Of a stretch of DNA of 64,000 bases, positions 770 through 31,015 are shown piece after piece. Each line of letters starts with the position of its first letter. Position 1 is the stretch's first letter. The position numbers and the translations under genes are program-made. The stretch comes from Altererythrobacter sp. BO-6 (lineage in GTDB: Bacteria; Pseudomonadota; Alphaproteobacteria; Sphingomonadales; Sphingomonadaceae), in contig NZ_CP049259.1 in the NCBI RefSeq assembly GCF_011047315.1, forward strand, positions 2,399,001 to 2,463,000. The letters are read 5' to 3'. The notes under the pieces are model-generated. The model saw nothing but the letters and a program-made list of their open reading frames with translations. It was not told where the DNA came from and searched no databases.

Positions 770-783
770 CTTTCCCTCCCCGT

Positions 784-12442: not shown

Positions 12443-12691
12443 ATGACTATCGAGGTAAACACCACTCGCCGGAAGGCTGAAGATCGCACGGTGACCAAGA
12501 TCAGCGTTGTGACAAAGCTGCTCAAGCGCAAACAGGGCGCTTCGCTCGATGAACTGGTCAAGCCAGCTGGCTGGCAGCCACATACGACACGCGCAGCGCT
12601 GACCGGCCTCAGGAAGAGGGGCTACCAGGTCGAGCGAGGTGAGCGGGCTGGTAAGACCTGCTACTCTCTTGTCGAGCCAACCAAGCCATGA
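12443..12691 (+). CDS. DUF3489 domain protein
   Basis: 82 residues of a small basic winged-helix-like protein: KISVVTKLLKRKQGASLDEL, then HTTRAALTGLRKRGYQVER. This is the DUF3489 pattern regularly found as the first gene of DUF3489-DUF2924-recombinase cassettes in alphaproteobacteria. ATG 12443 follows AGGAGAACC. The end overlaps the next ATG (ATGA). Its role is unknown; DNA binding for the recombinase is a reasonable guess. Confidence 0.85.
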   Translation: MTIEVNTTRRKAEDRTVTKISVVTKLLKRKQGASLDELVKPAGWQPHTTRAALTGLRKRGYQVERGERAGKTCYSLVEPTKP

Positions 12692-13134
12692 GCAAGGCTT
12701 CAAAGATCGAAGCTCAGCTCGCCGGTATCACCAACACGCCTGCAGCAAAGCTTCGTGAGGCTTGGCTAGAGCGGTTTGGTGAAGCTGCGCCTGCGGCTTC
12801 ATCGAACCTGATGCGGTTGGTGCTGGGCCATGCCCTCCAGGAGACGGCTATGGGAAAGCTACCAGCTGCACAGGCTAGGTTCCTGGGAGGTGACGCGCCG
12901 CTTCCTGAAGCATCCATCCAGCTCAAGCCCGGGACGCGTCTCGTGCGCGAGTGGAACGGCAGGATGCATTCGGTACTAGTGTCTGAGGACGGCTTCGAAC
13001 TCGATGGCAAGCTTTATCCTACTCTTTCGGCGGTGGCCCGACGTATCACCGGAGCCCATTGGTCTGGGCCGCGCTTCTTTGGGCTCAAGCGCCGACCTCC
13101 TCCACCATGCAAAGAGGGAAGGGCGGATGGCTAG
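12688..13134 (+). CDS. DUF2924 domain protein
   Basis: 148 residues matching DUF2924: an N-terminal LREAWLERFGEAAP segment, a central GTRLVREWNGRMHSVLV and a C-terminal YPTLSAVARRITGAHWSGPRFFGL. It is consistently the middle gene of the DUF3489-DUF2924-recombinase cassette. The 3' end overlaps the recombinase start by 8 bp. Molecular function is unknown; the conserved context points to a role in site-specific recombination by the neighbouring enzyme. Confidence 0.88.
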   Translation: MSKASKIEAQLAGITNTPAAKLREAWLERFGEAAPAASSNLMRLVLGHALQETAMGKLPAAQARFLGGDAPLPEASIQLKPGTRLVREWNGRMHSVLVSEDGFELDGKLYPTLSAVARRITGAHWSGPRFFGLKRRPPPPCKEGRADG

Positions 13135-14782: not shown

Positions 14783-14996
14783 TTCTCCGATAGATCGCCG
14801 CACCATGATCCCACCCGTTCTGGTGCCACCAAAAAGGCCATCAGAGACGCCTGGCGAGATCTGGCCCAATTTGCCGAGACAAGCACGGTCTCTGTCCCCA
14901 AGGCCAAACCATGAAGCGGTGAAAAGGCGCAGAACCGCGCGGTTTTCAAGGGCTATCGCGAGACAATTGGAATGGTGCCGCAGAGACCGAACTGCG

Positions 14997-15046
14997 TGGT
15001 GGGCGCGGCAAGGATTGAACTTGCGACCCCACCCGTGTGAAGGGTG
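14997..15046 (-). repeat. attL: 50-bp copy of the tRNA-Val 3' portion
   Basis: Identical over 50 bp to 43248-43297. It starts at the CCA end (TGGT on the plus strand) and runs through acceptor, T-arm, variable region and most of the anticodon arm. It diverges after AGGGTG, so this is only the displaced 3' fragment, not a functional tRNA. Confidence 0.9.
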
Positions 15047-15127
15047 GGAAAACGGACATTTGCGGCTATACACGGACAATAAAACGTCATAAAAACAGAC
15101 TTAGGCGTTCGAGAATGTGCGCCAATG

Positions 15128-15149
15128 TTTTTCATGCTTTTTTCATGGA
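15128..15149 (+). repeat. inner-end 22-bp repeat, candidate integrase arm site (left)
   Basis: TTTTTCATG-N-T6-CATGGA: two direct TTCATG units. It differs by one base from the site at 43192-43213 near the other end of the island. It lies between attL and the integrase start, where arm-type binding sites are expected. Confidence 0.5.
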
Positions 15150-15167
15150 TTTTGGAGTGCCCCGAAA

Positions 15168-16340
15168 ATGCCCGATCTGAGTCGCATCGGAGAGCGCGAA
15201 AAGCTGAAGCCGAAAGCTGGCGATGAGCCGCATTGGCAGCGCCTGCGCCAAGGGGTCTATCTTGGCTATCGTCCTTCGAAGAAGAAGGCTGGGGGCACGT
15301 GGTTTGCCCGCTTCTATGATCCCGAGACAAACCGCAATTCCCGCAAGCGATTAGGCGACTACGGAACCTTGTCAGGCCATGATGTTTTCAAGCAGGCCAA
15401 GGCGGATGCCGAGACATGGGCCGAAACAGTCGAAAGCGGGGGCGAGTTGGCCCGCGACATGGTGACGGTCAAGGATGCGTGCGAAGCCTATCTGAGGGAA
15501 AAGCCCGGATCGATTGCCGAAGGGGTTTTCCGGCGGCACGTTTATGATGATCCCATCGCCAAGGTGAAGCTCGAAAAGTTGCGGCGGCACCACCTGAGGG
15601 CATGGCGCAAGCGGCTGGAGCAAGCCCCGGCGCTAGTGACGCGCACGAAGGAAAGCGACAAAAAACGAATGAAGGAGCGTTCCAAGTCGACCGTCAATCG
15701 CGACATGGTGCCGCTGCGCGCCGCGCTGGGTATGGTGCTTAAGCCCGGTTCGCCGAATACGGATGCCGCATGGCAAGAGGCGCTGCGCCCCTTCAAGGGA
15801 GCCGACAAGCGCCGGGAGCTGTATCTCGACCGCGATGAGCGTAAGAAGCTGATCGATGCAACTTGCGACGAGGCGCAGCCTTTCGTGAAGGCCCTGTGCC
15901 TCTTGCCCCTGCGCCCCGGCGCTTTGGCTGGCTTGACGGTGCGCGACTTCGACAAGCGCACTCGTGCCTTGACTGTCGGCAAGGATAAGAATGGCAACCC
16001 GCGTCAACTTACCATGCCGCCAAAGATTGCCGCCTTCTTCGAGGCGCAAGTGCAGGACAAATTGCCAACTGCATCGATTTTCGCCCGCGCTGGAGGCGAG
16101 GCTTGGAACAAGGATGCTTGGAAATATCCGATAAAGGACGCGGTTAAAGCGGCTGGCCTACCTAGTGCAGCATCGGCTTACACCTTGCGCCACAGCGTAA
16201 TCACCGACTTGATCCGCGCCCGCCTACCCATCCTCACCGTCGCGCAGCTATCGGGCACGAGCGTTGCCATGATTGAAAAGCACTACGGTCATCTGGTGCG
16301 CGATGATGCAGAAGAGGCGCTGGCAAGCATCGCCATCTAG
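15168..16340 (+). CDS. int: tyrosine integrase of the tRNA-Val island
   Basis: 390 residues. An N-terminal SAM-like/arm-binding region (YLGYRPSKKKAGGTWFARFYD) is followed by the catalytic domain: Arg in LLPLRPGALAGL, then YTLRHSVITDL in the HxxR region with Tyr in place of the first His, and the Tyr nucleophile in MIEKHYGHLVRDD. Start ATG 15168 follows GGAGTG. It lies 121 bp inside attL and reads into the island, the expected arrangement. The C-terminal 30 or so residues reappear as an isolated fragment at 35913-36026. Confidence 0.92.
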   Translation: MPDLSRIGEREKLKPKAGDEPHWQRLRQGVYLGYRPSKKKAGGTWFARFYDPETNRNSRKRLGDYGTLSGHDVFKQAKADAETWAETVESGGELARDMVTVKDACEAYLREKPGSIAEGVFRRHVYDDPIAKVKLEKLRRHHLRAWRKRLEQAPALVTRTKESDKKRMKERSKSTVNRDMVPLRAALGMVLKPGSPNTDAAWQEALRPFKGADKRRELYLDRDERKKLIDATCDEAQPFVKALCLLPLRPGALAGLTVRDFDKRTRALTVGKDKNGNPRQLTMPPKIAAFFEAQVQDKLPTASIFARAGGEAWNKDAWKYPIKDAVKAAGLPSAASAYTLRHSVITDLIRARLPILTVAQLSGTSVAMIEKHYGHLVRDDAEEALASIAI

Positions 16341-16565: not shown

Positions 16566-16579
16566 CTACTCCTCAGTAG
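16566..16579. promoter_or_regulatory. inverted repeat CTACT-N4-AGTAG, candidate operator
   Basis: Perfect 5-bp arms with a 4-bp spacer, 44 bp upstream of the TonB receptor start. A near copy lies at 27613-27626 between the divergent monooxygenase and racemase genes, which suggests one regulator for both, perhaps the TetR protein encoded at 20142. Confidence 0.4.
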
Positions 16580-16622: not shown

Positions 16623-18902
16623 ATGGGTTTCACGAAGACAATCGGATTGCGTCTTGGCTCGGCTGTTTCTGTCGAATGTGCAGCTAAAGGGCGGAGCACG
16701 AGAGCGCTTTACTTTGCGGGGGCAGCCTTTGTCGGTCTCGCCAACTCGGGCTCAGCGCTGGCACAGGAAGGCAGTGCGCAGGCCGAGGGTGCAGAACAAG
16801 CAAACGGCAACACGATCATCGTCACTGCGCGTCGCTCTGAAGAATCCCTGTTCGAGATTGGTGCGTCGATTTCAGCGGTTTCGGCCGATTCAATCAGCCC
16901 AGGGCAAATTGAAGATGTTGAGTCGCTTGCTCGTGCGATTCCCAACGTATCTGTCGGTGACCAATTCGGTGTGAATCGCGTTTTCATTCGCGGTATCGGT
17001 ATGACAAGTATCGACCTCGGTGCCGACGGTGCGGTGGCGATGCTTCAGGATGGTGTGATAATCGCGCGGCCGGCAGCTCAGTTGGCAGGCTTTTACGATG
17101 TAGAACGTGTTGAGGTCCTGCGTGGACCGCAAGGCACGCTTTATGGGCGCGGTGCTACTGCCGGCGCGATGAACATCGTGACCAAGAAGCCGACCGAGGA
17201 ACTCGAAGGCTATGTGCGTGCGACCTATGGCAATTACGATGCATTGACCTTGGAAGGCGCGGTGGGCGGCCCTGTATCCGGCGATCAGGTAATGGTTCGC
17301 CTGGCAGGCAAATACGACAAGCGCGATGGCTATGGAGTCAATCTCGTGACTGGCGAAGATGTAGACGATCGCGATGCATTTGCTGTACGCGGGTCGTTGC
17401 TTGCGCGCCTCAGCAGCAACCTCGATCTCACCCTTCAGGCCGAGTATTACCGCGAAGACGACAACAACTACGCCTTCCACTATTTTGGTCCAACAGTTGC
17501 TCCTGAAAACGCTCTGGGATCGGTTCTAGGTGGCGATACGATCATCACATATTACGAGGCTCTGGGAGAGAAGCCGAATTTCAGGAATGGCTTTTCAGAT
17601 CAGGAAGCTATCAATGATCGGAAGGGCTACAACTTCACTGGTGAGCTGAACCTCGACGCGGGAGACTGGAACGTCAAGTCGATCACATCATATCGTTACT
17701 TTGACCGGTTTCAACGAGACGACCTCGATGCGTCCGACGTGAACATGTTCGGCCAGAACAATTACTACGAAACTTCCAAAACCTTCAGTCAGGAATTCGT
17801 AGCGAATTACGACGGACCTGGTTTTGATCTCCTACTCGGAGCCATGTACTTCCATGAAGATCTGTTCGGTCAAGTCTTGGTTCCGTTGACCAATCTTGGA
17901 CTCCTCTTTGGCCTTCCGGCTGATACATTCGACGATCAGGCCTACAACCAGGAAGGCGACGTCACCATCGACGCATACGGCCTCTTCGCACAGGGGACTG
18001 TTGATCTCAGCGATCGCCTCAAGGCTACATTCGGAGGACGGCTGAGCTATGAAAAGCGAAGGGGCACCGGATCATTCGAGTTTCTCGGTGTTGTCCCGAC
18101 CGACAGGGCCAAGAGCTGGACTGCCTTTACGCCAACCTTCTCGCTCGAATATCAGGCCAGTGATTCCACACTGCTTTACGCTTCGGTTACCCGCGGGTTC
18201 AAGTCCGGCGTGATCAACGTCGGTTCGCAGAACGAAGTGATCAATCCGGAGTTCGTATGGGGTTATGAAGCGGGCGTGAAGACAGCGGTAGGACGGCTTT
18301 TTGAAGGTAGCCTTGCCGCATTCTATCTCGATTACACCGACCTCCAGGTGGGCTTTGTTGATGCCTCGAGCGTGGTAACAACCGTTAACGCGGCATCCGC
18401 GCGCAATTATGGCCTTGAACTCGAAATGCGCGCCCGTCCGGCGCCGGGCCTGACGCTTGAATTCTTCGGCACCTATCTCAATGCCAAGTACAAGGACTTC
18501 GTGAACGGTGACTATCGTCAGGGTTTTGCTCAGGTCGATCTGTCCGGCAATCGGTTGCAGAATGCGCCGGAGTTCTCTGCCCGAGGCGCGATCAGCTATG
18601 ACTGGGTCATGGCGAACGATAGTCGGATCACAGTACGCAGTGACGTGAACTGGCAGGACCGCGTCTTCTTCACAGAGTTTAACAACGATGACGCCACCCA
18701 GCCTGCACACGCAATATGGAACGCGGGAATTGGCTATGCATCCCCAGGCGAAAAATACACGGTTGATCTCTGGGTCAGGAACATCACAGACGAGTTGGTG
18801 ATCGCGAACAACATCATTACTGCACCGCTCTACAACAGTGTACGCGTTGGCTCGCTTGCTCCGCCGCGCACTTACGGTGTGACCGTCGGTGTGAATTTCT
18901 GA
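16623..18902 (+). CDS. TonB-dependent outer-membrane receptor
   Basis: 759 residues. A signal region ends near LANSGSALAQ, followed by a TonB-box-like NTIIVTARR, a plug domain with IRGIGM, VEVLRGPQGTLYGRGATAGAMNIVTKKP, and a long beta-barrel ending in aromatic VGVNF. The FecA-type N-terminal signalling domain is absent. ATG 16623 with GGGGAGAGCG upstream. As the first cargo gene before the Fe-ADH, TetR and CoA-ligase genes it probably imports the substrate of the island pathway; sphingomonads commonly use such receptors for organic substrates. A siderophore role cannot be excluded. Confidence 0.9.
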   Translation: MGFTKTIGLRLGSAVSVECAAKGRSTRALYFAGAAFVGLANSGSALAQEGSAQAEGAEQANGNTIIVTARRSEESLFEIGASISAVSADSISPGQIEDVESLARAIPNVSVGDQFGVNRVFIRGIGMTSIDLGADGAVAMLQDGVIIARPAAQLAGFYDVERVEVLRGPQGTLYGRGATAGAMNIVTKKPTEELEGYVRATYGNYDALTLEGAVGGPVSGDQVMVRLAGKYDKRDGYGVNLVTGEDVDDRDAFAVRGSLLARLSSNLDLTLQAEYYREDDNNYAFHYFGPTVAPENALGSVLGGDTIITYYEALGEKPNFRNGFSDQEAINDRKGYNFTGELNLDAGDWNVKSITSYRYFDRFQRDDLDASDVNMFGQNNYYETSKTFSQEFVANYDGPGFDLLLGAMYFHEDLFGQVLVPLTNLGLLFGLPADTFDDQAYNQEGDVTIDAYGLFAQGTVDLSDRLKATFGGRLSYEKRRGTGSFEFLGVVPTDRAKSWTAFTPTFSLEYQASDSTLLYASVTRGFKSGVINVGSQNEVINPEFVWGYEAGVKTAVGRLFEGSLAAFYLDYTDLQVGFVDASSVVTTVNAASARNYGLELEMRARPAPGLTLEFFGTYLNAKYKDFVNGDYRQGFAQVDLSGNRLQNAPEFSARGAISYDWVMANDSRITVRSDVNWQDRVFFTEFNNDDATQPAHAIWNAGIGYASPGEKYTVDLWVRNITDELVIANNIITAPLYNSVRVGSLAPPRTYGVTVGVNF

Positions 18903-18923
18903 CAGCCATTTGGAGGCCAAGAC

Positions 18924-20096
18924 ATGCGCGCAAGCGAGGTTATTTTAACGAGGACGGAGAAAGTCAGCCTTGGTGTTCCTGCAGCGAAGGCGGTCGCGAC
19001 AGAAGCCGAGAGACTTGGGGCTGAGCGGGTCTTCGTTCTGGCGGGTCGTACGCTGGCAAGGGATACCGACGAAGTTAGCAGAATTGAAAAGGCACTTGGG
19101 TCGCGGCATGTAGCAACGCACACTGGCATAAGGCCTCACGGACCTCGCGAAGATGTGCTCGCGGCTGCGAACCATGCTAGGGAAGTCGATACTGATCTGG
19201 TGATTACGGTAGGCGGCGGATCTGTTACAGACGCTGGACAGGTAATGCTGCTTTGTCTGAAGCATAATTTCAACAGCGTTGACGATTTCGAACCATACCA
19301 TACCTCGGTTGACGAGGATGGAAACATGGTTCTCCCCGAGTTTGAAGGGCCTGACATCCCGATAATCTGCGTCCCGACCACACTTTCTGGTGGGGAGTTC
19401 AATCCGCTCTCGGGCGCGACTGATACGGCGATCAAGCAGAAGCAGGCTTATACACATCCGGCTATGGCACCGGTGTCTGTGGTTCTGGATCCCGCGATTA
19501 CAATACATACACCCGAATGGCTGTGGCTCTCTACTGGCGTCCGGGCTGTCGATCATGCAACTGAAGCCCTCAGTTCTCTCCTGTCGAATGCCTTCTTCGA
19601 TGGAATGGCTGAAAGTGCGTTGCGGCTGCTTTCCGAGGGCTTGCCCCGGGTAAAAGCCGACCCCTCCGACCTTGAAGCCCGTCTCAATTGTCAGGTAGGT
19701 GCGTGGCAGTCGATGATCCCGATCGTTGGCGGTGCACCAATGGGGGCCAGCCATGCGATTGGCCACGTTCTGGGGGGCACTTGCGACGTCTCACATGGGC
19801 ATACATCATGCGTGATGGCTCCATATGTCCAGGCGTGGAACAGTTTGGTCAACGCAGAGAGGCAGACGAGGATTAGTGCAGCACTTGGAGATCCCAACAG
19901 GCCCGCCTCTGAATTGCTTGACTCGCTCATCCGCGGTCTTGGCATGCCCCGGACCCTGCAAGAGGTAGGAGTGGATGAAAGCCAGTTCCCGCTTATTGCC
20001 GAGTATACTCTGGAAGACATGTGGGGAAGAACCAATCCGCGCCCGATCCGGAACGCCGATGATGTTATAGAGGTTCTTCGACTTGCGCTCGGTTAA
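18924..20096 (+). CDS. iron-containing alcohol dehydrogenase / maleylacetate reductase-like
   Basis: 390 residues. The NAD(P) site is VITVGGGSVTDAGQ (93-106) and CVPTTLSGGEF follows. Metal-ligand segments are TGVRAVDHATEA (204-214), MGASHAIGHVLGG and VSHGHTSCVM. The Asp usually found in GxDALxHA is Arg207 here, while H211 and the two downstream His segments remain. This variation fits the maleylacetate-reductase-like side of the family more than classical Fe-ADHs. It follows the TonB receptor by 21 bp with GGAGG before the ATG. Expected role: NAD(P)H-linked oxidoreduction of an alcohol, ketone or maleylacetate-like enoate. Confidence 0.85.
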   Translation: MRASEVILTRTEKVSLGVPAAKAVATEAERLGAERVFVLAGRTLARDTDEVSRIEKALGSRHVATHTGIRPHGPREDVLAAANHAREVDTDLVITVGGGSVTDAGQVMLLCLKHNFNSVDDFEPYHTSVDEDGNMVLPEFEGPDIPIICVPTTLSGGEFNPLSGATDTAIKQKQAYTHPAMAPVSVVLDPAITIHTPEWLWLSTGVRAVDHATEALSSLLSNAFFDGMAESALRLLSEGLPRVKADPSDLEARLNCQVGAWQSMIPIVGGAPMGASHAIGHVLGGTCDVSHGHTSCVMAPYVQAWNSLVNAERQTRISAALGDPNRPASELLDSLIRGLGMPRTLQEVGVDESQFPLIAEYTLEDMWGRTNPRPIRNADDVIEVLRLALG

Positions 20097-20141
20097 AGGG
20101 CGCATCCATGTGCGGCCCTACAAGCCAAAAGAGCAGATCGA

Positions 20142-20786
20142 ATGACTACCGCAGCTAGACGCAAGAGCACTTCAATCCGCAAGGAGATCGCCGCATTCAA
20201 GCGCCAGCGCATCCTTGAGGTGGCGAGCGAGCTCTTCGCGCGCCATGGATATGAATTGACCACGCTTGATGAGGTGGCTGCGAGGATCGAAGTTACAAAG
20301 CCGTTCATCTATTCCTATTACCGGAACAAGGGCGAGTTACTTCGCGAGATCTGCGAGCGGGGAATTCGCAAATCAACTGAAGCACTCGATGAAGTCATGG
20401 CGAGGCCTGCCTCACCAACTGACCAACTCCATCGTATTGTCCGCAGCGTCGGTCGGATTATCGTGGAGAACCGTGATTATATCGCAGTCTACCAGGCGGA
20501 AGAGAAGAACCTCTTGCCCGAAGACGCAAAACATATCCGTGAAATGCGACATGAATTTGATCTCAAGCTTACAGGCCTGCTCGAACGCGGACAGGAAGCG
20601 GGCGAGTTCGAAATCCAGCACGCTCAGCGCTCAGCACTCTGGATTGGCGGCCTGCTGACTTGGATCGCCAACTGGTACCATGAGGGGGGCAAGTGGTCTG
20701 CTGACGAGATCATTGAGGATGCGGTTTATACGATCGACAAGATCGTGATGCCGCTTGGTGAGTCGCCTCGAAAGGTAAACAGATGA
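20142..20786 (+). CDS. TetR-family transcriptional regulator
   Basis: 214 residues. The N-terminal HTH (RQRILEVASELFARHGYELTTL, then VAARIEVTKPFIYSYYRNKGELLREI) is classical TetR. The C-terminal ligand domain includes a TetR_C-like segment with AALWIGG-type SALWIGGLLTWIANWYHEGG. It overlaps the downstream acyl-CoA ligase by 4 bp. Regulators of this kind in acyl-CoA operons often respond to acyl-CoA ligands. It may bind the shared inverted repeats at 16566 and 27613 (inference). Confidence 0.88.
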   Translation: MTTAARRKSTSIRKEIAAFKRQRILEVASELFARHGYELTTLDEVAARIEVTKPFIYSYYRNKGELLREICERGIRKSTEALDEVMARPASPTDQLHRIVRSVGRIIVENRDYIAVYQAEEKNLLPEDAKHIREMRHEFDLKLTGLLERGQEAGEFEIQHAQRSALWIGGLLTWIANWYHEGGKWSADEIIEDAVYTIDKIVMPLGESPRKVNR

Positions 20787-22405
20787 GCGATTTCCCTGCA
20801 CATGGGCATAGCGACCCGCGCGTACCCTCGCGCGAGACGTGTGTAACGCGCTATCTAATCGACCGCTGGGCGCAGGACCGGCCAGACCAGGTCTATGCGT
20901 TGTTCGAAGACGGCTCTAGCTGGACCTATTTCGAACTCAGGGAACGTGTCGTGCAACTCGCGGCCGGGCTGCAGGAGTTGGGAGTCGCACAAGGAGAGCA
21001 TGTCGCGCTGTGGATGCCAAGCGATCGCGACGCCTTGCTTGCCTTTCATGCTGTCAATTACCTTGGCGCGGTCTTCGTCCCTTTCAACACAGCCTACAAG
21101 GGCGCACTGCTCGAGCATGTCCTGAACAACAGCGACGCTAGACTGCTGATTTGTCATGCAAGCCTTGTTGCCCGACTGAATGACGTCGATCGAGCCAAGC
21201 TCGAGCAGCTTGTTGTTGCAGGGGATTTCGACGGTGATGCGCCATTATCGGTTGCGCTTTGGAGCGACGTGGTCGCATCCCGCCACCAGCTGCAAGATCC
21301 GGCTCGTCCGATCGAACCTTGGGATAGCCAGTCGATCATCTATACTTCGGGGACAACCGGGCCGTCGAAGGGTGTGCTCTCGTCCTATTTGCATCTCTAT
21401 ACCAACGCCGGGCCGGACGGCTGGCCGTTTGTACGTGGGGATGACCGGTTCCTCGTCAACATGCCGATTTTTCACATCGGAGGTACTGGACTTCCATTCA
21501 ACATGCTTGCGCGTGGCGGTTCGATCGCGCTGATGGAAAATTTCTCGACCGAAACCTTTTGGCAATTCGTTCGAGAGACCGAGTGCACGGTCATTTTCCT
21601 GCTTGGCGTGATGGCGACCTTTCTGTTGAAGCGGGAGCCCGCTGATACCGATCGCGATCATAGCGTCCGGCTGGCCTTCATGGTGCCGCTGACCGAAAGC
21701 GCCACCGAATTTCATGAGCGGTTCGGGATCGACGTCTATTCGATCTTCAATATGACAGAGGTCTCCACCCCGACCTTCACCGAGCCGAACCCCACCAAGC
21801 TTGGCACTTGTGGCAAGCCGCGACCCGGCGTCGAAGTACGCTTGGTCGATAAGAACGACTGCGAGGTCGCGGTGGGCGAAGTGGGCGAGATGATCGTTCG
21901 TACGGATCGCCCGTGGGGCATGAACAGCGGCTATTATAAGAATCCCGAAGCGACTGCCGAGGCATGGCGCAACGGCTGGTTCCATACGGGTGATGCCTTT
22001 CGCAGGGATGCTGACGGCTATTTCTACTTCGTGGACCGGGTCAAGGATGCGATCCGCCGCCGCGGCGAGAACATCTCCTCGTTCGAGGTCGAAAGCCAGA
22101 TCGCCGCACACCCGTCTGTTCGTGAAGCAGCTGTGATCGGGGTTCCGAGCGAGTTTTCCGAGGACGAAGTGATGGTGGTCGTTGCACCGGTCGATGGGCA
22201 CACAATCGAACTCGAAGTGCTGTTCGAATTTGCCGCAGAGCGGCTGCCCTACTTCATGGTGCCACGATACTTTCGGATCATGGATGAATTGCCCAAGACG
22301 CCCACTGCGAAAGTGCAAAAGGCCAAGCTGCGCGAAGACGGTGTGACGGACGATACGTGGGATCGCGAAAGGGCCGGATTGCGGCTCAAGCGGGAGAAAT
22401 TTTGA
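20783..22405 (+). CDS. AMP-forming acyl-CoA synthetase
   Basis: 540 residues of the ANL superfamily. The phosphate-binding loop is IIYTSGTTGPSKGVLSS; FNMTEVSTPTF is the A5-like motif, FHTGDAFRRDADGYFYFVDRVKDAIRRRGENIS gives the A7/A8 hinge (quoted in pieces from 454 to 490), and the catalytic Lys lies in TPTAKVQKAKL. It resembles CaiC/long-chain or crotonobetaine-type ligases. Coupled to the TetR gene by ATGA. Expected role: activation of the acid made by the island's oxidative enzymes to its CoA thioester. Substrate unknown. Confidence 0.9.
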   Translation: MSDFPAHGHSDPRVPSRETCVTRYLIDRWAQDRPDQVYALFEDGSSWTYFELRERVVQLAAGLQELGVAQGEHVALWMPSDRDALLAFHAVNYLGAVFVPFNTAYKGALLEHVLNNSDARLLICHASLVARLNDVDRAKLEQLVVAGDFDGDAPLSVALWSDVVASRHQLQDPARPIEPWDSQSIIYTSGTTGPSKGVLSSYLHLYTNAGPDGWPFVRGDDRFLVNMPIFHIGGTGLPFNMLARGGSIALMENFSTETFWQFVRETECTVIFLLGVMATFLLKREPADTDRDHSVRLAFMVPLTESATEFHERFGIDVYSIFNMTEVSTPTFTEPNPTKLGTCGKPRPGVEVRLVDKNDCEVAVGEVGEMIVRTDRPWGMNSGYYKNPEATAEAWRNGWFHTGDAFRRDADGYFYFVDRVKDAIRRRGENISSFEVESQIAAHPSVREAAVIGVPSEFSEDEVMVVVAPVDGHTIELEVLFEFAAERLPYFMVPRYFRIMDELPKTPTAKVQKAKLREDGVTDDTWDRERAGLRLKREKF

Positions 22406-22458
22406 GGCCAGTCGCTTGAGAGGGCACGGCACCCAATTCGCATTTGAAGGACCACCAG

Positions 22459-23349
22459 ATGGAACCCTTTTTTCAGGTCGGCAATCACAAGGTCTATCGT
22501 GCGGAGGAATGGCAAGGTGGGTTTGCCCCGCCACAGGATCTCTTCGCTGAATTCGACCCGACGGTGTTCAATGATTTCGCGGCAGGGTTAGAGCCAGACT
22601 ATTACAGGGACGGTGTAATCTATGCCTTCCTTCAAAGCTGGGTGATTGCGACAGAAACCGGAAATATCCTGATCGATACCGGAGCGGGGAACGGCAAGGA
22701 GCGGCCGAATATCCCGGTGTTTGGCAAGCTCGACACACCCTTTCTCCAGCACCTCAGCGATGCGGGTTTCTCTCCGGACAGGATCGACAAGGTCTTTTGC
22801 ACCCATCTCCATATCGACCATGTTGGCTGGAACACAGTTCTGGAAAATCGGCGCTGGATCCCGACATTCCCCAACGCGACCTACTTCTTCCCACGCATTG
22901 ACAATAAGTTCTGGAACCCGGCCGGCCCGTACTATGCCGGGATGAACGGCGCGGCCGTAAACGCGAATGTTTATGAGGACAGCGTGTTGCCGGTGATCGA
23001 AGCGGGCCAAGCAGTATTCGTCGATGATGGCGACGAGATTGCGCCTGGAATGATTGCCCGGGCTGCGCCCGGTCACACACCCGGGCAGATGGTGCTGGAA
23101 GTGACCGACGGCAACGATGTGGCGATGTTTACGGGCGATATTCTGCATCATCCCATTCAAATCTACCGTCCTGACTGGAACAGTGTCTATTGCGAGGATC
23201 GCCGGCTGGCGTCGAGCACGCGTCATGCTGTGCTGGAGCGTGCCTGCCGGATAGGTGCCCGAATTGTCCCAGCCCACTTTGGCGGCGCTCACACCACTTT
23301 CGTCGAGCGAAGCGGCACGGGCTTTTGCCCACGATTTCCGACCGACTAG
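22459..23349 (+). CDS. metallo-beta-lactamase-fold hydrolase (lactonase-like)
   Basis: 296 residues. The zinc motif HxHxDH is THLHIDHVGW (H116, H118, D120, H121), with further ligands in PGHTPGQM, TGDILHH and PAHFGG. The segment order and the preceding LIDTGAGNGKERP resemble AttM/AHL-lactonase-like and related lactone hydrolases rather than beta-lactamases. ATG 22459 follows GAAGGACC. Placed two genes before a P450 and near a Baeyer-Villiger-type monooxygenase, it is a good candidate for opening a lactone or ester product. That role is inference; the fold also serves thioesters and quorum signals. Confidence 0.85.
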   Translation: MEPFFQVGNHKVYRAEEWQGGFAPPQDLFAEFDPTVFNDFAAGLEPDYYRDGVIYAFLQSWVIATETGNILIDTGAGNGKERPNIPVFGKLDTPFLQHLSDAGFSPDRIDKVFCTHLHIDHVGWNTVLENRRWIPTFPNATYFFPRIDNKFWNPAGPYYAGMNGAAVNANVYEDSVLPVIEAGQAVFVDDGDEIAPGMIARAAPGHTPGQMVLEVTDGNDVAMFTGDILHHPIQIYRPDWNSVYCEDRRLASSTRHAVLERACRIGARIVPAHFGGAHTTFVERSGTGFCPRFPTD

Positions 23350-23373
23350 ATCTGTGGAGCGAGCAGGAAACCA

Positions 23374-24597
23374 ATGACAAAGGTCAGATCATTCGCACCC
23401 GATGAGCCAGAGATGCGGGCCGATCCCTATCCGGCATTTGCCGAACTGCGCGAACATGACCCCCTGCACCGCTCGGACCTCGGCTATTGGGTCGTCAGTC
23501 GATATGACGATGTTCGCGGGGTCCTCATGAACAGGGATGATTTCGGCCAGGGCGACTTTGTGGAGAATATCCGGCTGTTCTACGGGCCCGATTTCGATGT
23601 CATGGGGCAACCCGCATACAAATGGCTCTCGGAAGTATTCCTGATGCAGGATCCGCCGCATCACACGCGTGTACGGGGATTGGTGACGGGGGCCCTTACC
23701 GCCCGGATCGTGCGCAGCATGGAGCCGCGGATTCGCGCGATCACTGATACACTGATCAATCGTTTCATTGACCATGGACAAGCTGACCTGATCGGTGAAT
23801 TCGCCTACGAACTTCCCGTCCGTGTGATGTGTGACATGTTGGGCGTTGATCCTGCCGATACTCGACTTCCGGCCGTTGTCGACGCGATCAGTAAGAGCTT
23901 CATTGTCTTCGAGGCAAGAGCGCTGACAGAAAGCGAACTGGCCACCGCCAACCAACAGATTCGCGTGCTCCAGGCCTTCTTTGATGAGCTATTCGATCAG
24001 CGGATGAAGGAGCCTCGTGCGGATCTGGCAACAGCACTGGTGCAATCGGGTGGGAAGGAAGACTCGCTTTCGCACGATGAGCTTGTCACCGTAGCAATCG
24101 GGTTGTTCGGTGCTGGGTTTGAAACCACCGCTCACCTGCTCGGTAATGGCCTGTTGTGCTTAAGCAAATTTCCGGATCAATGGCAGCTTCTGGTCGGTGA
24201 TCCGGTCGGCCTGAGTGCGAATGCCGTCGATGAGGTATTGCGTTATGAAAGCTCCTTGATCGCTACCTATCGTACTGCCCTGAGGGAAACACAGGTGCGC
24301 GGTCAGACCATCGAAGCCGGCTCGAAGGTTCTGTGTCTCATCGGAGCGGGCAACCGTGATCCCCGAACCTTCGATCACGCGGATACATTCGACATCCAGC
24401 GCAACGCCCGCAATCATCTCAGCTTCGGCGGCGGCATCCACTTCTGTGCCGGTGCGGAGCTGGCCCGATTGGAAGGTCGTATTGCGTTTGAGCGATTAGC
24501 TACGCGCTTGCCCGGATTAGCTGTGGAGACACGTAACCCCGCCTGGAGAGAGGGCTTTCTGTTCCGGGGAATGGCGACCTTGCCGGGCCGCTGGTGA
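23374..24597 (+). CDS. cytochrome P450
   Basis: 407 residues, soluble bacterial class. The oxygen-activation helix is GLFGAGFETTAHLLGNG, ExxR is in VDEVLRYESS, and the heme ligand is C358 in FGGGIHFCAGAELARLEG. There is no membrane anchor or fused redox domain, and no ferredoxin or ferredoxin reductase gene is seen nearby, so electrons must come from elsewhere. It begins 24 bp after the hydrolase gene and abuts a convergent MDR gene. Expected role: hydroxylation of an unactivated carbon as an early catabolic step. Resembles CYP families acting on terpenoids or steroids only at a general level. Confidence 0.92.
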   Translation: MTKVRSFAPDEPEMRADPYPAFAELREHDPLHRSDLGYWVVSRYDDVRGVLMNRDDFGQGDFVENIRLFYGPDFDVMGQPAYKWLSEVFLMQDPPHHTRVRGLVTGALTARIVRSMEPRIRAITDTLINRFIDHGQADLIGEFAYELPVRVMCDMLGVDPADTRLPAVVDAISKSFIVFEARALTESELATANQQIRVLQAFFDELFDQRMKEPRADLATALVQSGGKEDSLSHDELVTVAIGLFGAGFETTAHLLGNGLLCLSKFPDQWQLLVGDPVGLSANAVDEVLRYESSLIATYRTALRETQVRGQTIEAGSKVLCLIGAGNRDPRTFDHADTFDIQRNARNHLSFGGGIHFCAGAELARLEGRIAFERLATRLPGLAVETRNPAWREGFLFRGMATLPGRW

Positions 24598-25572
24598 TCA
24601 CGGGCAAATGACGACTTTCCCGATACGGCCCGGGTCTGACAAGGCGTCGAATGCGGCAGCTGCATCCGCAAGCGTGTGCCGTGCGGCAACTGTTGGCTCG
24701 ATCCGCCCAGTGCGCGCCAGATCGAGGATGATCGACAGGATCGCTCGGGTTCGCGCTTTGTCAGTTTGCCACAGGTAACGGGCGTCGACGCCAACAAGTG
24801 CGGCAGACTTGAGCAACGGCAAATTGGCGGGCAGACTGGGAATGCCGGTATCCGCCGCAAACCCAACCACAAGGTGACGACCGCGTTTTGCGAGCGAACG
24901 AAAGGCTGGCTCGAACAACGGTCCACCGACCGGATCGAAAACCATGTTGATTCCATGCGGAACTGCTGCATTGAGGTCGGAGCGCCAGTCTTCCCGGCGA
25001 TAGTCAATTGCATGGCGCGCGCCTGATTGTGAGACGAATGCAAGCTTCTCCCTTCCGCTGGCAAGGCCTGCTACCACCGCACTGCTGGCGTTGGCCAGCC
25101 TGACCGCAGCGGAACCGACCCCGCCAGATGCTCCCGTAACCAGGAGCGTTTCGCCGGGCTTCAATTCTCCGCAGTCGAATAATCCGTAGTAGGCTGTCAG
25201 ATAATCGAGCAGGATTGCGGCCGCCTCTGGTGATTCAAGCTCTTCCGGAACCGCGACTGCGTTGTCTTCGGGCACGCAGACGAATTCGGCGAGGCCTCCG
25301 CCAAATTGCCATGCGGCAATTCGCTGCCCAACTCTGAAGCGGGAGTTTGGCTCGACGGCTTCGCAGACCGTACCGACAATCTCGCCACCTGGGATGAAGG
25401 GCAGCTGGGGTTTTACCTGGTACAGGCCTTTCATCACCAGGGGATCAACAAAACCGAGCGATGTCGCTTCGACCTTGATCAATAACTCGCCCGAAGCGGC
25501 GACAGGCCTCTTGATCTCCTCGAGTGCAAAACTGGAAGGGGACCCCAGTGCATGCCCGATGAATGCCTTCAT
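24598..25572 (-). CDS. medium-chain dehydrogenase/reductase, quinone-oxidoreductase-like
   Basis: 324 residues. The N-terminal GroES-like part (PFIPGGEIVGTV) lacks the catalytic zinc Cys/His set and the structural four-Cys lobe, placing it with zinc-free quinone oxidoreductases and enoyl reductases. The NADPH site is LLVTGASGGVGSAAVRLA near residue 150. It is convergent with and directly abuts the P450 and is followed by the monooxygenase on its own strand (16-bp gap), so it is probably the second gene of that operon. Expected role: reduction of an enone or enoyl thioester, or oxidation of an alcohol. Confidence 0.85.
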   Translation of the reverse strand: MKAFIGHALGSPSSFALEEIKRPVAASGELLIKVEATSLGFVDPLVMKGLYQVKPQLPFIPGGEIVGTVCEAVEPNSRFRVGQRIAAWQFGGGLAEFVCVPEDNAVAVPEELESPEAAAILLDYLTAYYGLFDCGELKPGETLLVTGASGGVGSAAVRLANASSAVVAGLASGREKLAFVSQSGARHAIDYRREDWRSDLNAAVPHGINMVFDPVGGPLFEPAFRSLAKRGRHLVVGFAADTGIPSLPANLPLLKSAALVGVDARYLWQTDKARTRAILSIILDLARTGRIEPTVAARHTLADAAAAFDALSDPGRIGKVVICP

Positions 25573-25588
25573 GCGAATGCCCGTCTCA

Positions 25589-27547
25589 TCAGCCTACCTT
25601 TTCCAGCGCGGCCAGGTTGTTGCTGATCAGGCCGAATTCGAGATCTTCCCGCTTTGGTTTGCGGGTCATGCGCCAGAAGGCATCATTCCTCCACGGCGTA
25701 ATCGCGATGACCCTGCCACTAGAGTTTCTGTACCAGTTTTCCGTGCCGGGATGGGTCCACACAAGCTTTTCATGCTCTTCATCGATCCGGCGATTATATT
25801 CGTGGTAGACGTCCGCCTTGACCTCAACGGTAGCAGCGCCCGCGGCGGCCGCCTCTTCCACGACTTTCCCGGCGAAGTGCATCTGGTTCTCGATATTCCG
25901 GATCATGCTGCCGCCGTGACCCGATCCCACATTTGGGCCAAGCAGAATGAAGAAGTTCGGAAAATCGGGAACGAGCGTACCGAGGTAGGCTTCAGCGTTA
26001 TCTTCCCCCCAAAATTCGCTGAGAACCTTTCCGTCGCGCCCGACGATCTCATAGGATCCAAGCACGCGGGTGGTCTGGAAGCCGGTAGCAAGGATGATGA
26101 TGTCGGCTTCGATCATTTCACCCGAAGAGGAGTACAGCTTGCGCCCCTCGACGCGCGCCAGATGTTCCGGGATCAGCTTCACATTGGGCTTCTTCAATGT
26201 CCGGTACCAACCGTTGTCGAGCAGCATTCTCTTGGCGAACGGGGGGTAGTCCGGCAGGACATCCTTGATGAGCTCCGGACGTTCGGCGAGTTCCTGCTCG
26301 ACATAGCGAGTAAAGGCTCTGCGGTGGCCGTCGTTGATCGCATTGACCGAGCGTTCCGGATGGTCCCATTCCGGGTCGCGGAACAAGGTTCCGTGAACAC
26401 GGTCGTTAAAGGTCCACGACAGTCGCTGTTCGGCCCAGGCCCGGTAAAGTGGGACCACTTTCATCAGATAGCGAACTCCGTCTGGAATTCGCTTGCGAAA
26501 CTGCGGGAAGGGCGCTGCCCATTGCTTGGATCGGGCAAATAAGGTGAGCTTCTCCACTTGGTCGGCTATAGCAGGTGCGACTTGCATGCCCGACGCTCCG
26601 TTACCGACCACTGCAACGCGTTTGCCCGTCATCGTGGCATCCTCGGGCCATCTACTGGTGTGGTAGACATCGCCCTCAAACTCATCGAGGCCGTCGATGT
26701 GGGGGTATTTCGGGATATTGAGAATGCCCACCGCGCTAAAAAGATAATCAGCATAGAGAAGCTCGGTATCGCCGCCAGCGGTCTCGATAGTCACTTCCCA
26801 CTTGCAGGTTTCTTCCTTCCACCGTGCCGCGTGAACATGGGTGTTGAACCGCGCGTTGTTGTAGAGCCCGAACTGCTTTGCTGTGTCGAGCAAGTAGCTC
26901 TCGATCTCATCGCGCAGCGGGAAATGCATTGACCAGTCGTTCGGTCGGCAGCTGAAGGTGTAGGTCAGCGCCGGAGTGTCGACACCGCACCCGGGATAGC
27001 GGTTCTCGAACCAGGTGCCGCCGAAATCGTCGTTCTTTTCGAGGACCGTGTATTTGACACCCATTCTCTGTAATTCGATCCCGGCGCAAATGCCTGAGAT
27101 GCCGCCGCCAATCACGAGCGCGGTCTTATCGCGGAGGCTCTCAGGGAGCTTGGGTTCATCGGCTTCTAGTGACATTCCAGCCGCGATCACATCTCCATAT
27201 TCTTCGGGGACATTCTCGGTCATGGCGACGCTGAGCATTTCAGCAAGGTGACTGTTGTCGGGTCGTGCGAGCTTCAGGTCCTGACCGCCCAGCCAATCGC
27301 TGATCGCCTTCAGCGCTGCATCCCTAATTTCATCCTGGATCGCCTCCGGCAATTGGCCGCTGTCATTGTCATCAAGCCCCGGAGAGCGAGCAGGAGCATA
27401 GGGGGCGGCCAGCCATTTCCCATCGCCTGTCATCTGATGGAGCACCATCAGCAAGCTAGGGATATTTGCCTGCCTTACTCCTGATTGCAGCAGATCCCAG
27501 TCCACCTGAGTGTCTGCGACGGGCCGCGCTGCAAACCGATCGGTCAT
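25589..27547 (-). CDS. Baeyer-Villiger-type flavin monooxygenase (HAPMO-like)
   Basis: 652 residues. An N-terminal extension of about 135 residues without cofactor motifs, as in 4-hydroxyacetophenone monooxygenases, precedes the FAD site GGGISG (147-152) and the type I BVMO fingerprint FEGDVYHTSRW (290-300). The NADPH site is VVGNGASGMQ near 316. C-terminal LGPNVGSGHGGSMI is also typical. Expected reaction: insertion of oxygen next to a ketone, giving an ester or lactone. Together with the MDR gene it forms a minus-strand unit, divergent from the racemase-like gene. Confidence 0.9.
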   Translation of the reverse strand: MTDRFAARPVADTQVDWDLLQSGVRQANIPSLLMVLHQMTGDGKWLAAPYAPARSPGLDDNDSGQLPEAIQDEIRDAALKAISDWLGGQDLKLARPDNSHLAEMLSVAMTENVPEEYGDVIAAGMSLEADEPKLPESLRDKTALVIGGGISGICAGIELQRMGVKYTVLEKNDDFGGTWFENRYPGCGVDTPALTYTFSCRPNDWSMHFPLRDEIESYLLDTAKQFGLYNNARFNTHVHAARWKEETCKWEVTIETAGGDTELLYADYLFSAVGILNIPKYPHIDGLDEFEGDVYHTSRWPEDATMTGKRVAVVGNGASGMQVAPAIADQVEKLTLFARSKQWAAPFPQFRKRIPDGVRYLMKVVPLYRAWAEQRLSWTFNDRVHGTLFRDPEWDHPERSVNAINDGHRRAFTRYVEQELAERPELIKDVLPDYPPFAKRMLLDNGWYRTLKKPNVKLIPEHLARVEGRKLYSSSGEMIEADIIILATGFQTTRVLGSYEIVGRDGKVLSEFWGEDNAEAYLGTLVPDFPNFFILLGPNVGSGHGGSMIRNIENQMHFAGKVVEEAAAAGAATVEVKADVYHEYNRRIDEEHEKLVWTHPGTENWYRNSSGRVIAITPWRNDAFWRMTRKPKREDLEFGLISNNLAALEKVG

Positions 27548-27612
27548 TTCATTTCCTCTTTGTCTTGCTCGAGCCTGTCAAACGGGTGATTGCATAGTGG
27601 CAGGGAATGGGT

Positions 27613-27626
27613 CTACTGACTAGTAT
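27613..27626. promoter_or_regulatory. inverted repeat CTACT-N4-AGTA, candidate operator
   Basis: Second occurrence of the motif at 16566-16579 (arms CTACT and AGTAT, 4-bp spacer), centred in the 129-bp gap between the divergent monooxygenase and racemase-like genes. AT-rich TATAAAATTT follows immediately, possibly a -10 region. Confidence 0.4.
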
Positions 27627-27676
27627 AAAATTTAACTCGTAAGAATACTGCGACCCTCCGCGTGGAGAAGGAACGG

Positions 27677-28840
27677 ATGAACGTGCCAGTCGACGAAAAT
27701 CAGGCTCCGCTTGCGGGTATCCGGATCCTTGAGTTCTCAGGATTGGGGCCGACGCCGTTCGGCACCATGCTGCTTGCCGACCTTGGTGCACAGGTTCTGC
27801 GGATAGAGCGTCATGGCGCTGTAAATCCTCTGGGCGGAGATCCGCGCTATGACTTTATCTACCGGGGCAGACCGTCGGTGGCGCTGGATGTTCGGTCGCC
27901 AGAGGGACGCGGGATTCTCCTCGACCTGGCCAAACAGGCGGATGTGTTGATTGAAGGATTTCGCCCGGGAGTGATGGAGCGGCTGGGTCTGGGCCCCGAT
28001 GAATTGACTGCAGCCAACGAACGGCTGATTTATGCTAGGATGAGTGGCTGGGGTCAGGAAGGCCCACTTGCCCAAAAGGCCGGCCACGATCTCAACTATC
28101 TCGCCATGTCCGGTGGTCTCCATCCGATCGGGCCATTCGATGGTCCGCCAACTCCTCCATTGAATCTTGTCGGTAATCTGGGCGGGGGAGGAACATTCCT
28201 TGCCATGGGCATCATGGCGGCGATCATCGAGCGGAGCCGTTCCGGCAAGGGGCAGATACTCGACGTGGCAATGCTCGACGGAATTTCCGTCCTCCTGACT
28301 CAATTGTCAGGATGGATGCAGATGGGGCAATGGAACCGCGGGCGCGGGGGAAGCTTGCTTGATGGCAGCGCCTATTTCTACCGCTGCTACGAAACGCAGG
28401 ATGCGCGCTATATTGCCGTCGGCGCGCTAGAGAAACAGTTCCACGATGCCTTCATCACAGGGCTTGGTCTCAGGCCGGAGGATTTTCCTCGTCACCTTGA
28501 TCCGGCTCACTGGAAGTCGAGGTCTGAGGTTGTCTCGCAAGTCATGGCATCGAAATCGCGGGATCAATGGGTGGCGAAATTTGAAGAGTTCGATGCGTGT
28601 GTTTCACCCGTGCTGAGCCTTGAAGAGGCGACCAGCCATCCCGCCAATATTGCGCGGGGAGTGCACAAAATCTCCGCTCGATCTTTCCAGCCCAGACCGG
28701 CACCTCGCTTCAGTCGATCTGAGATAACTGATCCGGGTGAGACTGTGGGAGAAGAGTCGCTTGAGGATGCGTTGCGCAATTGGTCGTTGGAAAAATCCCT
28801 TGCTGCAAAACTAGTGCAGGCGTCCAATCCAGATCGCTAA
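27677..28840 (+). CDS. alpha-methylacyl-CoA racemase-like, CaiB/BaiF CoA-transferase family
   Basis: 387 residues. Resembles AMACR/MCR throughout: VIEGFRPGVMERLGLGPDEL-like segment, GHDLNYLAMSGGLHPIG with H137, and AVGALEKQFHDAF with E252. In mycobacterial MCR the catalytic pair is a His and the Asp of GDFGGG; here that segment is VGNLGGGG, so the Asp is Asn167. ATG 27677 follows GGAGAAGGAACGG. Expected role: epimerising the 2-methyl centre of a branched acyl-CoA before beta-oxidation, typical for isoprenoid or sterol side chains. The Asn leaves activity uncertain; a CoA-transferase is the alternative. Confidence 0.82.
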   Translation: MNVPVDENQAPLAGIRILEFSGLGPTPFGTMLLADLGAQVLRIERHGAVNPLGGDPRYDFIYRGRPSVALDVRSPEGRGILLDLAKQADVLIEGFRPGVMERLGLGPDELTAANERLIYARMSGWGQEGPLAQKAGHDLNYLAMSGGLHPIGPFDGPPTPPLNLVGNLGGGGTFLAMGIMAAIIERSRSGKGQILDVAMLDGISVLLTQLSGWMQMGQWNRGRGGSLLDGSAYFYRCYETQDARYIAVGALEKQFHDAFITGLGLRPEDFPRHLDPAHWKSRSEVVSQVMASKSRDQWVAKFEEFDACVSPVLSLEEATSHPANIARGVHKISARSFQPRPAPRFSRSEITDPGETVGEESLEDALRNWSLEKSLAAKLVQASNPDR

Positions 28841-29698: not shown

Positions 29699-31015
29699 AT
29701 GAGCGTGACGCTGACCACCAAACCTAGCTTCTCCCACCTCCTGCGCGTGTTTTTGCGCATTGGCCTGCTCAGTTTTGGCGGTCCTGCTGGACAAATCGCA
29801 CTGATGCACCGTGAACTGGTCGAGGATCGAGATTGGATTAGCGAGGAGGATTATCTTCACGCGCTCAATTTCTGTCACCTCTTGCCTGGACCGGAGGCGC
29901 AGCAGCTGGCGACTTGGATCGGCTGGCGTCTACATGGCTGGCGCGGCGGGTTAGCGGCAGGTCTGCTGTTCGTCATTCCCGGTGCGCTGGTGATCCTCGT
30001 ATTGTCGGCACTCTACGCGGTCGCTGCTGACCTCAACTGGTTTGAAGCGCTGTTCTTGGGAGTAAAGGCAGCCGTACTTGCGATTGTGGTTCAGGCCATA
30101 CTACGGATCGCTGGGCGTGCGCTCAACACACAGTTCAAGCAGGGGCTGGCTGTGGCTGCCTTCGTCGCACTGTTCCTGCTGGATCTGCCGTTTCCGCTGA
30201 TCGTGTTGGGGGCAGGCGCAATCGGAATGGCGGTCGCTGCCATGCGTCCTCAATGGCTGGCGCTAAAGCAGGGAGGTTCTGCTCCGCCATCTGGGCCGCG
30301 CCCGTGGCAAAGAACATCGCAGGCTGTGGCTGTTTGCGGCGTGATCTGGGCCGCACCAATGGTACTTGTCGCCACAACGCTGGGCCGCGATCATGTGCTG
30401 TGGGACATCGGTGCGTTCTTCTCACAGCTTGCCGTGGTGACATTTGGTGGGGCTTATGCCGTGCTTGCCTATATGGCGCAGAAAGCGGTGCATGGCTTTG
30501 GGTGGCTTCAACCGGGCGAAATGGCGGATGGGCTAGGCCTGGCCGAAACCACACCGGGGCCGCTCATCATGGTGACGCAGTTTGTGGGATATCTCGCCGC
30601 ATATCGCGCGCCGGAGCCGTTCACGCCTTTCGTAGCTGGACTGATCGGCGCTGGGCTGACGACCTGGGTGACTTTCGCACCATGTTTTCTCTGGATATTC
30701 GCGCTGGCTCCATGGATCGATCGGCTGGGGAATGCCGTGGGGCTCAAGGGCGGGCTAGCTGCCGTGACAGCCGCTGTAGTTGGCGTGATTGCCAACCTCG
30801 CCGGGTGGTTTGTGCTGCATGTGCTATTTGAAACGGTGGGAGAGACCCGTTTTGGTCCGTTGCGGCTTTACACGCCCGACTGGACAACGTTCGACTGGCG
30901 CGCGGCAGTGCTTGCGGCCATTGCCTGCTTGCTCGTCTTTAAAGCCAACTGGTCGGTAATCCGTGTGCTTGCGGTATGCGCTGCAGGAGGACTAGCGCTG
31001 GGATTGCAACTGTAG
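29699..31015 (+). CDS. chrA: chromate transporter ChrA, long form
   Basis: 438 residues with two CHR domains. The first opens LRVFLRIGLLSFGGPAGQIALMHR (given in part) and LLPGPEAQQLATWIGWR; the second repeats this as QLAVVTFGGAYAVLAYM and ETTPGPLIMVTQFVGYLAAY. About ten membrane segments. The ATG lies at the end of the repeat-rich gap with GAGG upstream. ChrA proteins of this form export chromate by proton exchange. In the island it is a stress or metal-resistance passenger. No chrB regulator is seen. Confidence 0.92.
   Translation: MSVTLTTKPSFSHLLRVFLRIGLLSFGGPAGQIALMHRELVEDRDWISEEDYLHALNFCHLLPGPEAQQLATWIGWRLHGWRGGLAAGLLFVIPGALVILVLSALYAVAADLNWFEALFLGVKAAVLAIVVQAILRIAGRALNTQFKQGLAVAAFVALFLLDLPFPLIVLGAGAIGMAVAAMRPQWLALKQGGSAPPSGPRPWQRTSQAVAVCGVIWAAPMVLVATTLGRDHVLWDIGAFFSQLAVVTFGGAYAVLAYMAQKAVHGFGWLQPGEMADGLGLAETTPGPLIMVTQFVGYLAAYRAPEPFTPFVAGLIGAGLTTWVTFAPCFLWIFALAPWIDRLGNAVGLKGGLAAVTAAVVGVIANLAGWFVLHVLFETVGETRFGPLRLYTPDWTTFDWRAAVLAAIACLLVFKANWSVIRVLAVCAAGGLALGLQL

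Follow-up and report, generated by a model that had tools for sequence, protein, structure and literature searches.

A candidate TetR-controlled catabolic gene set on a predicted mobile island of Altererythrobacter sp. BO-6

Gene content and layout

Altererythrobacter sp. BO-6 carries nine neighbouring genes that look like a catabolic set built on Baeyer-Villiger chemistry. They were studied within a 64,000-nucleotide stretch, hereafter the window, which corresponds to positions 2,399,001-2,463,000 of the single-contig 3.04-Mb genome; all coordinates below refer to it. Eight of the genes had been named in an earlier interpretation of the DNA made without database searches (the sequence-only reading), and all eight exist where it placed them; the TetR gene had been missed. 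The set consists of:

16623-18902, plus strand: TonB-dependent receptor (likely ATG start; frame open from 16539)
18924-20096, plus strand: iron-type alcohol dehydrogenase (Fe-ADH) family protein, with three His ligands and Arg at the usual metal-binding Asp
20142-20786, plus strand: TetR-family regulator
20783-22405, plus strand: AMP-forming acyl-CoA ligase
22459-23349, plus strand: metallo-beta-lactamase (MBL)-fold hydrolase of the AidC / lactonase-ancestor (MPH) group (ATG start)
23374-24597, plus strand: cytochrome P450
24598-25572, minus strand: MDR protein of the NAD(P)H:quinone oxidoreductase type (PIG3-like), a proposed enone reductase
25589-27547, minus strand: type I Baeyer-Villiger monooxygenase (BVMO), FAD-dependent, with an N-terminal extension
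27662-28840, plus strand: CaiB/CoA-transferase III protein near MtMCR (AMACR-like), with Asp156 replaced by Asn

The first six genes, from the TonB receptor to the P450, are co-directional and separated by -4 to about 53 bp. On the minus strand the BVMO gene is followed 16 bp later by the MDR gene, whose stop codon abuts that of the P450 gene, while the CaiB gene diverges from the BVMO gene. No gene for a redox partner of the P450, be it a ferredoxin or a reductase, lies within the nine-gene cluster, as had already been noticed. That remark does not extend to the rest of the genome, where Fer2 domains occur at five places, three of them in frames of 127-129 amino acids, small [2Fe-2S] ferredoxins at contig positions 809519, 2221638 and 2587640 (reductases were not searched for genome-wide).

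Recurrence of the set in other genomes

The nine genes co-occur at 25 other loci, nearly all of them from Sphingomonadales and one from an alphaproteobacterial metagenome-assembled genome (MAG). Duplicate copies of one genome were left out of this sample, and so were L043, a short contig from a MAG, and a pair of loci from Rhodococcoides whose BVMO is 45-47 % identical; some of the compared stretches or contigs end early. The set is not always complete and its order is shuffled. Since gene order varies among groups, it is the content that is conserved, beyond mere synteny. Within 13 kb of the BVMO gene, the ligase is found at 24 of the 25 loci, the Fe-ADH protein and TetR at 23 each, the TonB receptor at 22, the MBL hydrolase and the CaiB protein at 21 each, the P450 at 19 and the MDR protein at 15. 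One of these loci, from Polymorphobacter (L053), has a BVMO of merely 40 % identity, and to the 19 P450 genes comes one in G056 that lies 11 kb from its BVMO, beyond the compared stretch. The co-localisation of the genes supports the earlier proposal that BVMO, lactonase-type hydrolase and CoA ligase belong to one catabolic set.

Of 397 genomes sampled from the family, 19, or about 5 %, have a close BVMO (at least 64 % identity), with BO-6 counted among them. Outside the family, the best match among 385 genomes of the class reaches 57 %. Besides BO-6, 15 of the 397 genomes contain a member of the P450 subfamily (at least 56 % identity), and a further two have a relative at 44 %. In fourteen of these 15 genomes a close BVMO lies on the same contig, and in the fifteenth (G228) a 39 % BVMO lies 2.5 kb away. 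Conversely, the P450 is missing at this threshold from four of the 18 other carriers of a close BVMO (G006, G131, G235 and G314), which makes it an accessory step.

More distant relatives show parts of the set in other company. A Tistrella plasmid carries the BVMO (57 %) and the ligase (62 %) beside a serine hydrolase; relatives of the MBL hydrolase, the P450 and the CaiB protein were not matched at this locus. Together with the gene adjacency found at 15 of the 25 loci (not in the window), this arrangement suggests that the ligase takes the product of the BVMO and the hydrolase. A Variovorax locus pairs the ligase (52 %) with a CaiB protein (44 %). Ligase homologues of 55-56 % identity in Rhodococcus and Sulfitobacter neighbour either MDR and Fe-ADH relatives or phosphotransferase and acyl-CoA dehydrogenase genes with transporters, a setting that is suggestive of hydroxy acids and not decisive for the substrate. 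The stretch of pNL2 compared with Saro_3708 in view held no BVMO match.

The Rhodococcus loci (L137 and L139) are plasmid-borne, pRHL1 of RHA1 among them, with a ligase of 56 % and MDR and Fe-ADH proteins of 33-37 % identity. Their neighbours in R. koreensis (L137) include a TetR gene and an ABC transporter of the sugar type. No BVMO relative was matched in either stretch, and the two loci are a cousin of one module of the window set.

A candidate operator shared by the two promoters

The same inverted repeat is found once in either promoter of the set:

16567-16578, plus strand: candidate TetR operator TACT-N4-AGTA, ahead of the run from TonB receptor to P450, 44 bp before the TonB ATG
27614-27625, plus strand: second TACT-N4-AGTA site, inside the divergent BVMO/CaiB promoter

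These two copies in the 64-kb window compare with an expectation of 0.05 from shuffled sequences and of about 0.15 from the whole-genome rate. Across the window and the 25 other loci the repeat occurs 49 times, at 24 of the 26 loci (all except L064 and L066). Eleven other arrangements of the half-site letters yield 0-8 sites, and spacers of 0-3 or 5-8 bp yield 0-1. Forty-one of the 49 sites lie at most 250 bp upstream of the projected start of a cluster gene. The remaining eight are 87-110 bp from the projected TonB start and thus also lie beside it, because the frame used for the projection opens 84 bp ahead of the likely ATG.

With a TetR gene inside the set and the same inverted repeat at both promoters, the sequence hallmarks of a TetR regulon are present, and we infer that TACT-N4-AGTA is the operator of the cluster's TetR. 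Lack of co-regulation had been named as an outcome that would overturn the idea of a pathway; the shared operator points the other way.

Two of the seven matches in the BO-6 genome are the cluster sites and four others lie within reading frames. In 11 of the 18 other carriers, 23 of 26 sites fall within the cluster; one of the three off-cluster sites is within frames, while two, from two genomes of one genus, sit between lipoprotein-like and dut-like genes, where on our reading they serve no promoter. No ferredoxin gene was seen under the operator at the off-cluster sites examined, a search that did not extend to reductases.

Ten of the 25 loci hold an extra gene for an FMN-dependent dehydrogenase of the lactate dehydrogenase type, some stretches being too short to tell. 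It adjoins the TetR gene (e.g., L039, 18276-19502) and is not part of the window cluster. At six of the ten (L039, L041, L044, L046, L054 and L058) an operator site lies between the two genes.

Properties of the individual enzymes

The signature in the monooxygenase, FxGxxxHxxxWP, is that of type I BVMOs and not the form of flavin-containing monooxygenases (FMO), given as FxGxxxHxxx[YF][KR] in the accessible text of PMC10028610. It also has both dinucleotide-binding motifs (GGGISG and GNGASG), as a type I BVMO should, so the earlier assignment as BVMO-type stands. The F, G, H and W of the signature are kept in the window protein and 27 relatives; the last place, P or D in the type I definition, is P in 26 of these 28, D in one and N in one. 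An N-terminal extension of about 130 residues is predicted to be helical in a low-confidence model (pLDDT 67).

Extensions of this kind are a feature of 4-hydroxyacetophenone monooxygenase (HAPMO), according to the accessible text of PMC10028610, and HAPMO, likened here by description, also shares the type I motif; the nine genes include no ring-cleavage dioxygenase. The extension raises the possibility of a different route, in which the BVMO would turn a methyl ketone, either isoprenoid (e.g., phytone) or aryl, into an ester, the MBL enzyme would act as an esterase, a dehydrogenase would oxidise the freed alcohol and the ligase would activate the acid. The serine hydrolase next to the BVMO-ligase pair in Tistrella would fit, and an AMACR-like protein suits branched acids. 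However, the hydrolase comes closest, by sequence and by fold, to lactonases and phosphotriesterases, the nine genes include no aldehyde dehydrogenase, and the MDR protein would be left without a clear task. We consider such an open-chain or aryl route possible and rather doubtful.

Among PDB matches of the BVMO, a steroid monooxygenase (199 bits) ranks no nearer than cyclohexanone monooxygenases (204 bits), and OTEMO scores 190 bits. The steroid match calls to mind the progesterone pdc cluster of Caenibius tardaugens, which, as far as described in the accessible part of PMC12239570, likewise combines a type I BVMO with a nearby TetR gene. Steroid side-chain removal after this model is nevertheless extremely unlikely: the luciferase-like monooxygenase and the LuxR regulator of pdc are not among the nine genes, which instead include a ligase, an MBL hydrolase and a P450, and it is by gene content that the two are set apart.

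The MBL protein has the HxHxDH motif, the further Asp and His metal ligands and a matching fold, as in the AidC/MPH-like MBL lactonases, and such an activity is predicted for it. Its resemblance to AidC, AidB and LrsL would also suit a quorum-quenching lactonase, or a set that detoxifies a xenobiotic without feeding carbon metabolism, and both TetR control and a mobile location would be in keeping with this. Signal or toxin inactivation is hard to reconcile with the CoA ligase at 24 and the TonB receptor at 22 of the 25 loci, which indicate uptake and assimilation, and we regard it as quite improbable.

Both the heme Cys and the I-helix Thr of the P450 are present in the window protein and in the 18 relatives that cover the two sites (one of 19 is cut). 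The AMACR-like protein matches MtMCR with 352 bits over query residues 15-374 and keeps Arg91, His126 and Glu241. Asp156, the base for the R-epimer in MtMCR, is Asn in 17 of the 22 cluster copies, the window protein being one of them, while His126 is conserved in all 22 and Glu241 in 21. The protein thus lacks the two-base pair of His126 and Asp156 that, with Glu241, characterises the racemases, which weakens the 2-methyl epimerisation formerly assigned to it.

Iron-dependent alcohol dehydrogenases bind their metal through one Asp and three His. The Fe-ADH family protein keeps the three His and has Arg at the Asp place in all 24 copies, and so departs from the usual ligand set. Among aligned structures, the methanol dehydrogenases 8zrl and 8zwd have the Asp, and 3jzd has Asn there. 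Alcohol oxidation, which had been ascribed to this protein or to the MDR protein, is uncertain for the former because of the Arg. Its GxRAVDHA motif, in which Arg takes the position of the Asp, recurs in the MAR1 chain 9ph0 (134 bits) of the maleylacetate reductase branch; in contrast to maleylacetate reductase systems, the nine genes provide no ring-cleavage dioxygenase to make maleylacetate.

A predicted mobile island with a probable mosaic history

The nine-gene set is cargo of a predicted island spanning 14997-43297, whose borders are marked by the following features:

14997-15046, plus strand: left attachment-site copy, which repeats the tRNA-Val 3' end perfectly and in direct orientation over 50 bp
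15117-16340, plus strand: tyrosine integrase, just within the left repeat
43248-43322, minus strand: tRNA-Val(CAC), whose 3' part (43248-43297) is the right repeat copy

An integrase and a direct repeat of a tRNA 3' end at both borders are what defines an integrative island targeting a tRNA gene, and we read the set as riding on a mobile element. The 50-bp repeat is the sole same-strand repeat of at least 25 bases in the window; a third copy was not found, the next best place having 28 of 50 matches. GC content is 52-59 % in the island, 59-67 % in the window to its right and 59-63 % to its left, except for 58 % at 12-14 kb.

Of eight relatives compared at SppA, three have the tRNA-Val within the stretch. 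In one, of the same genus (G426, locus L133), the tRNA-Val runs directly into a homologue of window positions 5-788 (73 %); the other two have different neighbours and no such direct continuation. L133 suggests that the island and the block 788-14996 were both inserted here, adding about 42 kb in two blocks. The SLC13/CitMHS gene (31062-32870) did not serve to trace an empty site: it is itself accessory (8 of 61 genus genomes, that of BO-6 included), and its neighbours were unmatched.

In midpoint-rooted trees, the TonB, Fe-ADH, TetR and ligase proteins of the window group with an Erythrobacter MAG (L048) and Polymorphobacter (L053), with supports of 0.96-1.0 and one inner TonB node of 0.06. 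The MBL, P450, MDR, BVMO and CaiB proteins group with Altererythrobacter/Sphingopyxis, with supports of 0.68-0.999 and no printed value for the CaiB node. As the two gene groups have different relatives, the window set looks like a two-module mosaic. The same perhaps applies to L048, which falls inside or next to the Altererythrobacter/Sphingopyxis group in the MDR and BVMO trees.

Further cargo includes a chromate-transporter gene (29699-31015) and, at 31062-32870, the CitMHS-type transporter gene. Two adjacent frames at 33025-34124, the second of which (33603-34124) matches the Pfam phage-integrase N-terminal domain with 26 bits, may together represent a single tyrosine recombinase gene that has been interrupted. 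Near the tRNA-Val end, an MFS transporter (41723-42931) seems to continue in a second frame (42714-43100) that has no Pfam match.

Known pathways and the proposed route

The claim that no such pathway had been described goes too far as regards the step logic. In the accessible texts of PMC4097962 and PMC7794910, limonene/carvone degradation comprises a hydroxylase, alcohol dehydrogenase, ene-reductase, BVMO, lactone hydrolase and CoA activation, the carvone/dihydrocarvone route running through a monooxygenase, carveol dehydrogenase, carvone reductase, ketone monooxygenase and lactone hydrolase to CoA. The likeness of the window set to this route of Rhodococcus erythropolis DCL14 is one of described steps and not of sequence, and the set adds a TonB receptor, a CaiB protein, a mobile island and a TetR operator. 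The camphor (cam) system of Pseudomonas putida ATCC 17453, as far as covered by the same sources and PMC8706424, shares a P450, an alcohol dehydrogenase, a BVMO and a CoA synthetase with the set, whose BVMO is a distant relative of OTEMO. However, cam has diketocamphane monooxygenases and its own redox partners (camCAB), the ferredoxin and reductase in the cluster that mark a camphor-type P450 system; the window set instead has an MBL hydrolase and a CaiB protein, with ferredoxin-like genes elsewhere in the genome. Among the matches listed in open-access literature searches, which left subscription journals mostly outside, there was no paper on this cluster and none that joined these enzyme families under a single operator; the set may have been described elsewhere. 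As far as can be seen, the kind of pathway is known, and the combination, the operator, the mobility and the spread are new.

We give about an even chance to a mobile, TetR-controlled catabolic regulon, the most likely substrate being an alicyclic, terpenoid-like alcohol or ketone. The order of reactions is derived from family chemistry. The substrate would enter through the TonB receptor and could be hydroxylated by the P450, an optional step with electrons from a ferredoxin encoded elsewhere. The Fe-ADH family protein or another dehydrogenase would interconvert alcohol and ketone; alternatively, the former might serve as a reductase like maleylacetate reductases. After optional enone reduction by the MDR protein, the BVMO would convert the ketone to a lactone, the MBL enzyme would open it to a hydroxy acid, and the ligase would turn this acid into its CoA thioester. 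Chemistry at the alpha carbon of the thioester would fall to the AMACR-like protein, which may work with a single base, and general housekeeping beta-oxidation would complete the route. The substrate or an early product would release TetR.

A number of observations weigh against this proposal. The sequence data themselves carry no evidence on the substrate, nor on the methyl-branched cyclic compound proposed earlier, and BVMOs with N-terminal extensions of the HAPMO kind accept aryl and open-chain ketones too. The MBL group also contains acyl-homoserine lactone (AHL) lactonases and phosphotriesterases, and the replacement of Asp156 in the AMACR-like protein and of the metal Asp in the Fe-ADH protein add to the doubt. 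Several clusters do without P450 and MDR genes, which therefore cannot be a general requirement of the route, and at two loci (L064 and L069) most of the set is absent from the sequence examined. Moreover, operator-like sites are no commoner genome-wide than a reversed control (7 against 10 in BO-6; 26 against 28 for a stricter pattern in the 11 carriers), and the case for the operator is therefore one of placement.

A more specific version is tentative: aquatic Sphingomonadales would share an undescribed, widespread and horizontally assembled regulon, recognisable by its own operator and devoted to a single class of natural terpenoid-like ketones. Its AMACR-like protein, lacking the second base, and its Fe-ADH family protein, lacking the usual metal Asp, would run non-standard reactions. 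For geosmin as a substrate, there was no gene-level match among those listed in an open-access literature search.

A second catabolic cluster beside the island

Outside the island, at 784-12174, lies a second catabolic cluster that resembles monoterpene ring cleavage (mrc) genes. It encodes a thiolase, an OB-fold protein, a dienoyl-CoA-reductase-like SDR, an acyl-CoA dehydrogenase, BadH-like and BadI-like proteins (305 and 409 bits, below cut-offs of 431 and 468), a frame with an acetyl-CoA hydrolase/transferase domain, a BKACE, an enoyl-CoA hydratase and an AKR. Enzymes related to BadH and BadI open monoterpene-derived rings in Castellaniella, according to the accessible text of PMC4109377. 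The hydratase (10049-11332) was found in none of 60 other genus genomes. The BKACE (9034-10062) scores 536 bits against an NCBIfam cut-off of 430 for 3,5-dioxohexanoate:acetyl-CoA acetone transferase, an odd activity beside BadHI. Between this cluster and the island, a large serine recombinase (13004-14782) perhaps moved the first block.

The BadHI cluster was considered as part of the nine-gene set and left out, because it lies outside the island and none of the 18 other close-BVMO carriers has a close BadI. At E <= 1e-70, 10 of the 397 family genomes have a close BadI, with BO-6 counted among them. The separation is not a clean one: four of the nine others (G035, G088, G094 and G296) have a more distant BVMO (33-45 %), in G088 one of them near a BKACE relative (56 %).

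Significance

The two-module mosaic would show how a pathway is assembled by exchange. The operator makes the inducer, and hence the substrate, directly searchable with a reporter. Since about one in twenty of the sampled family genomes carries a close copy of the BVMO, the set likely matters for the turnover of some natural compound.

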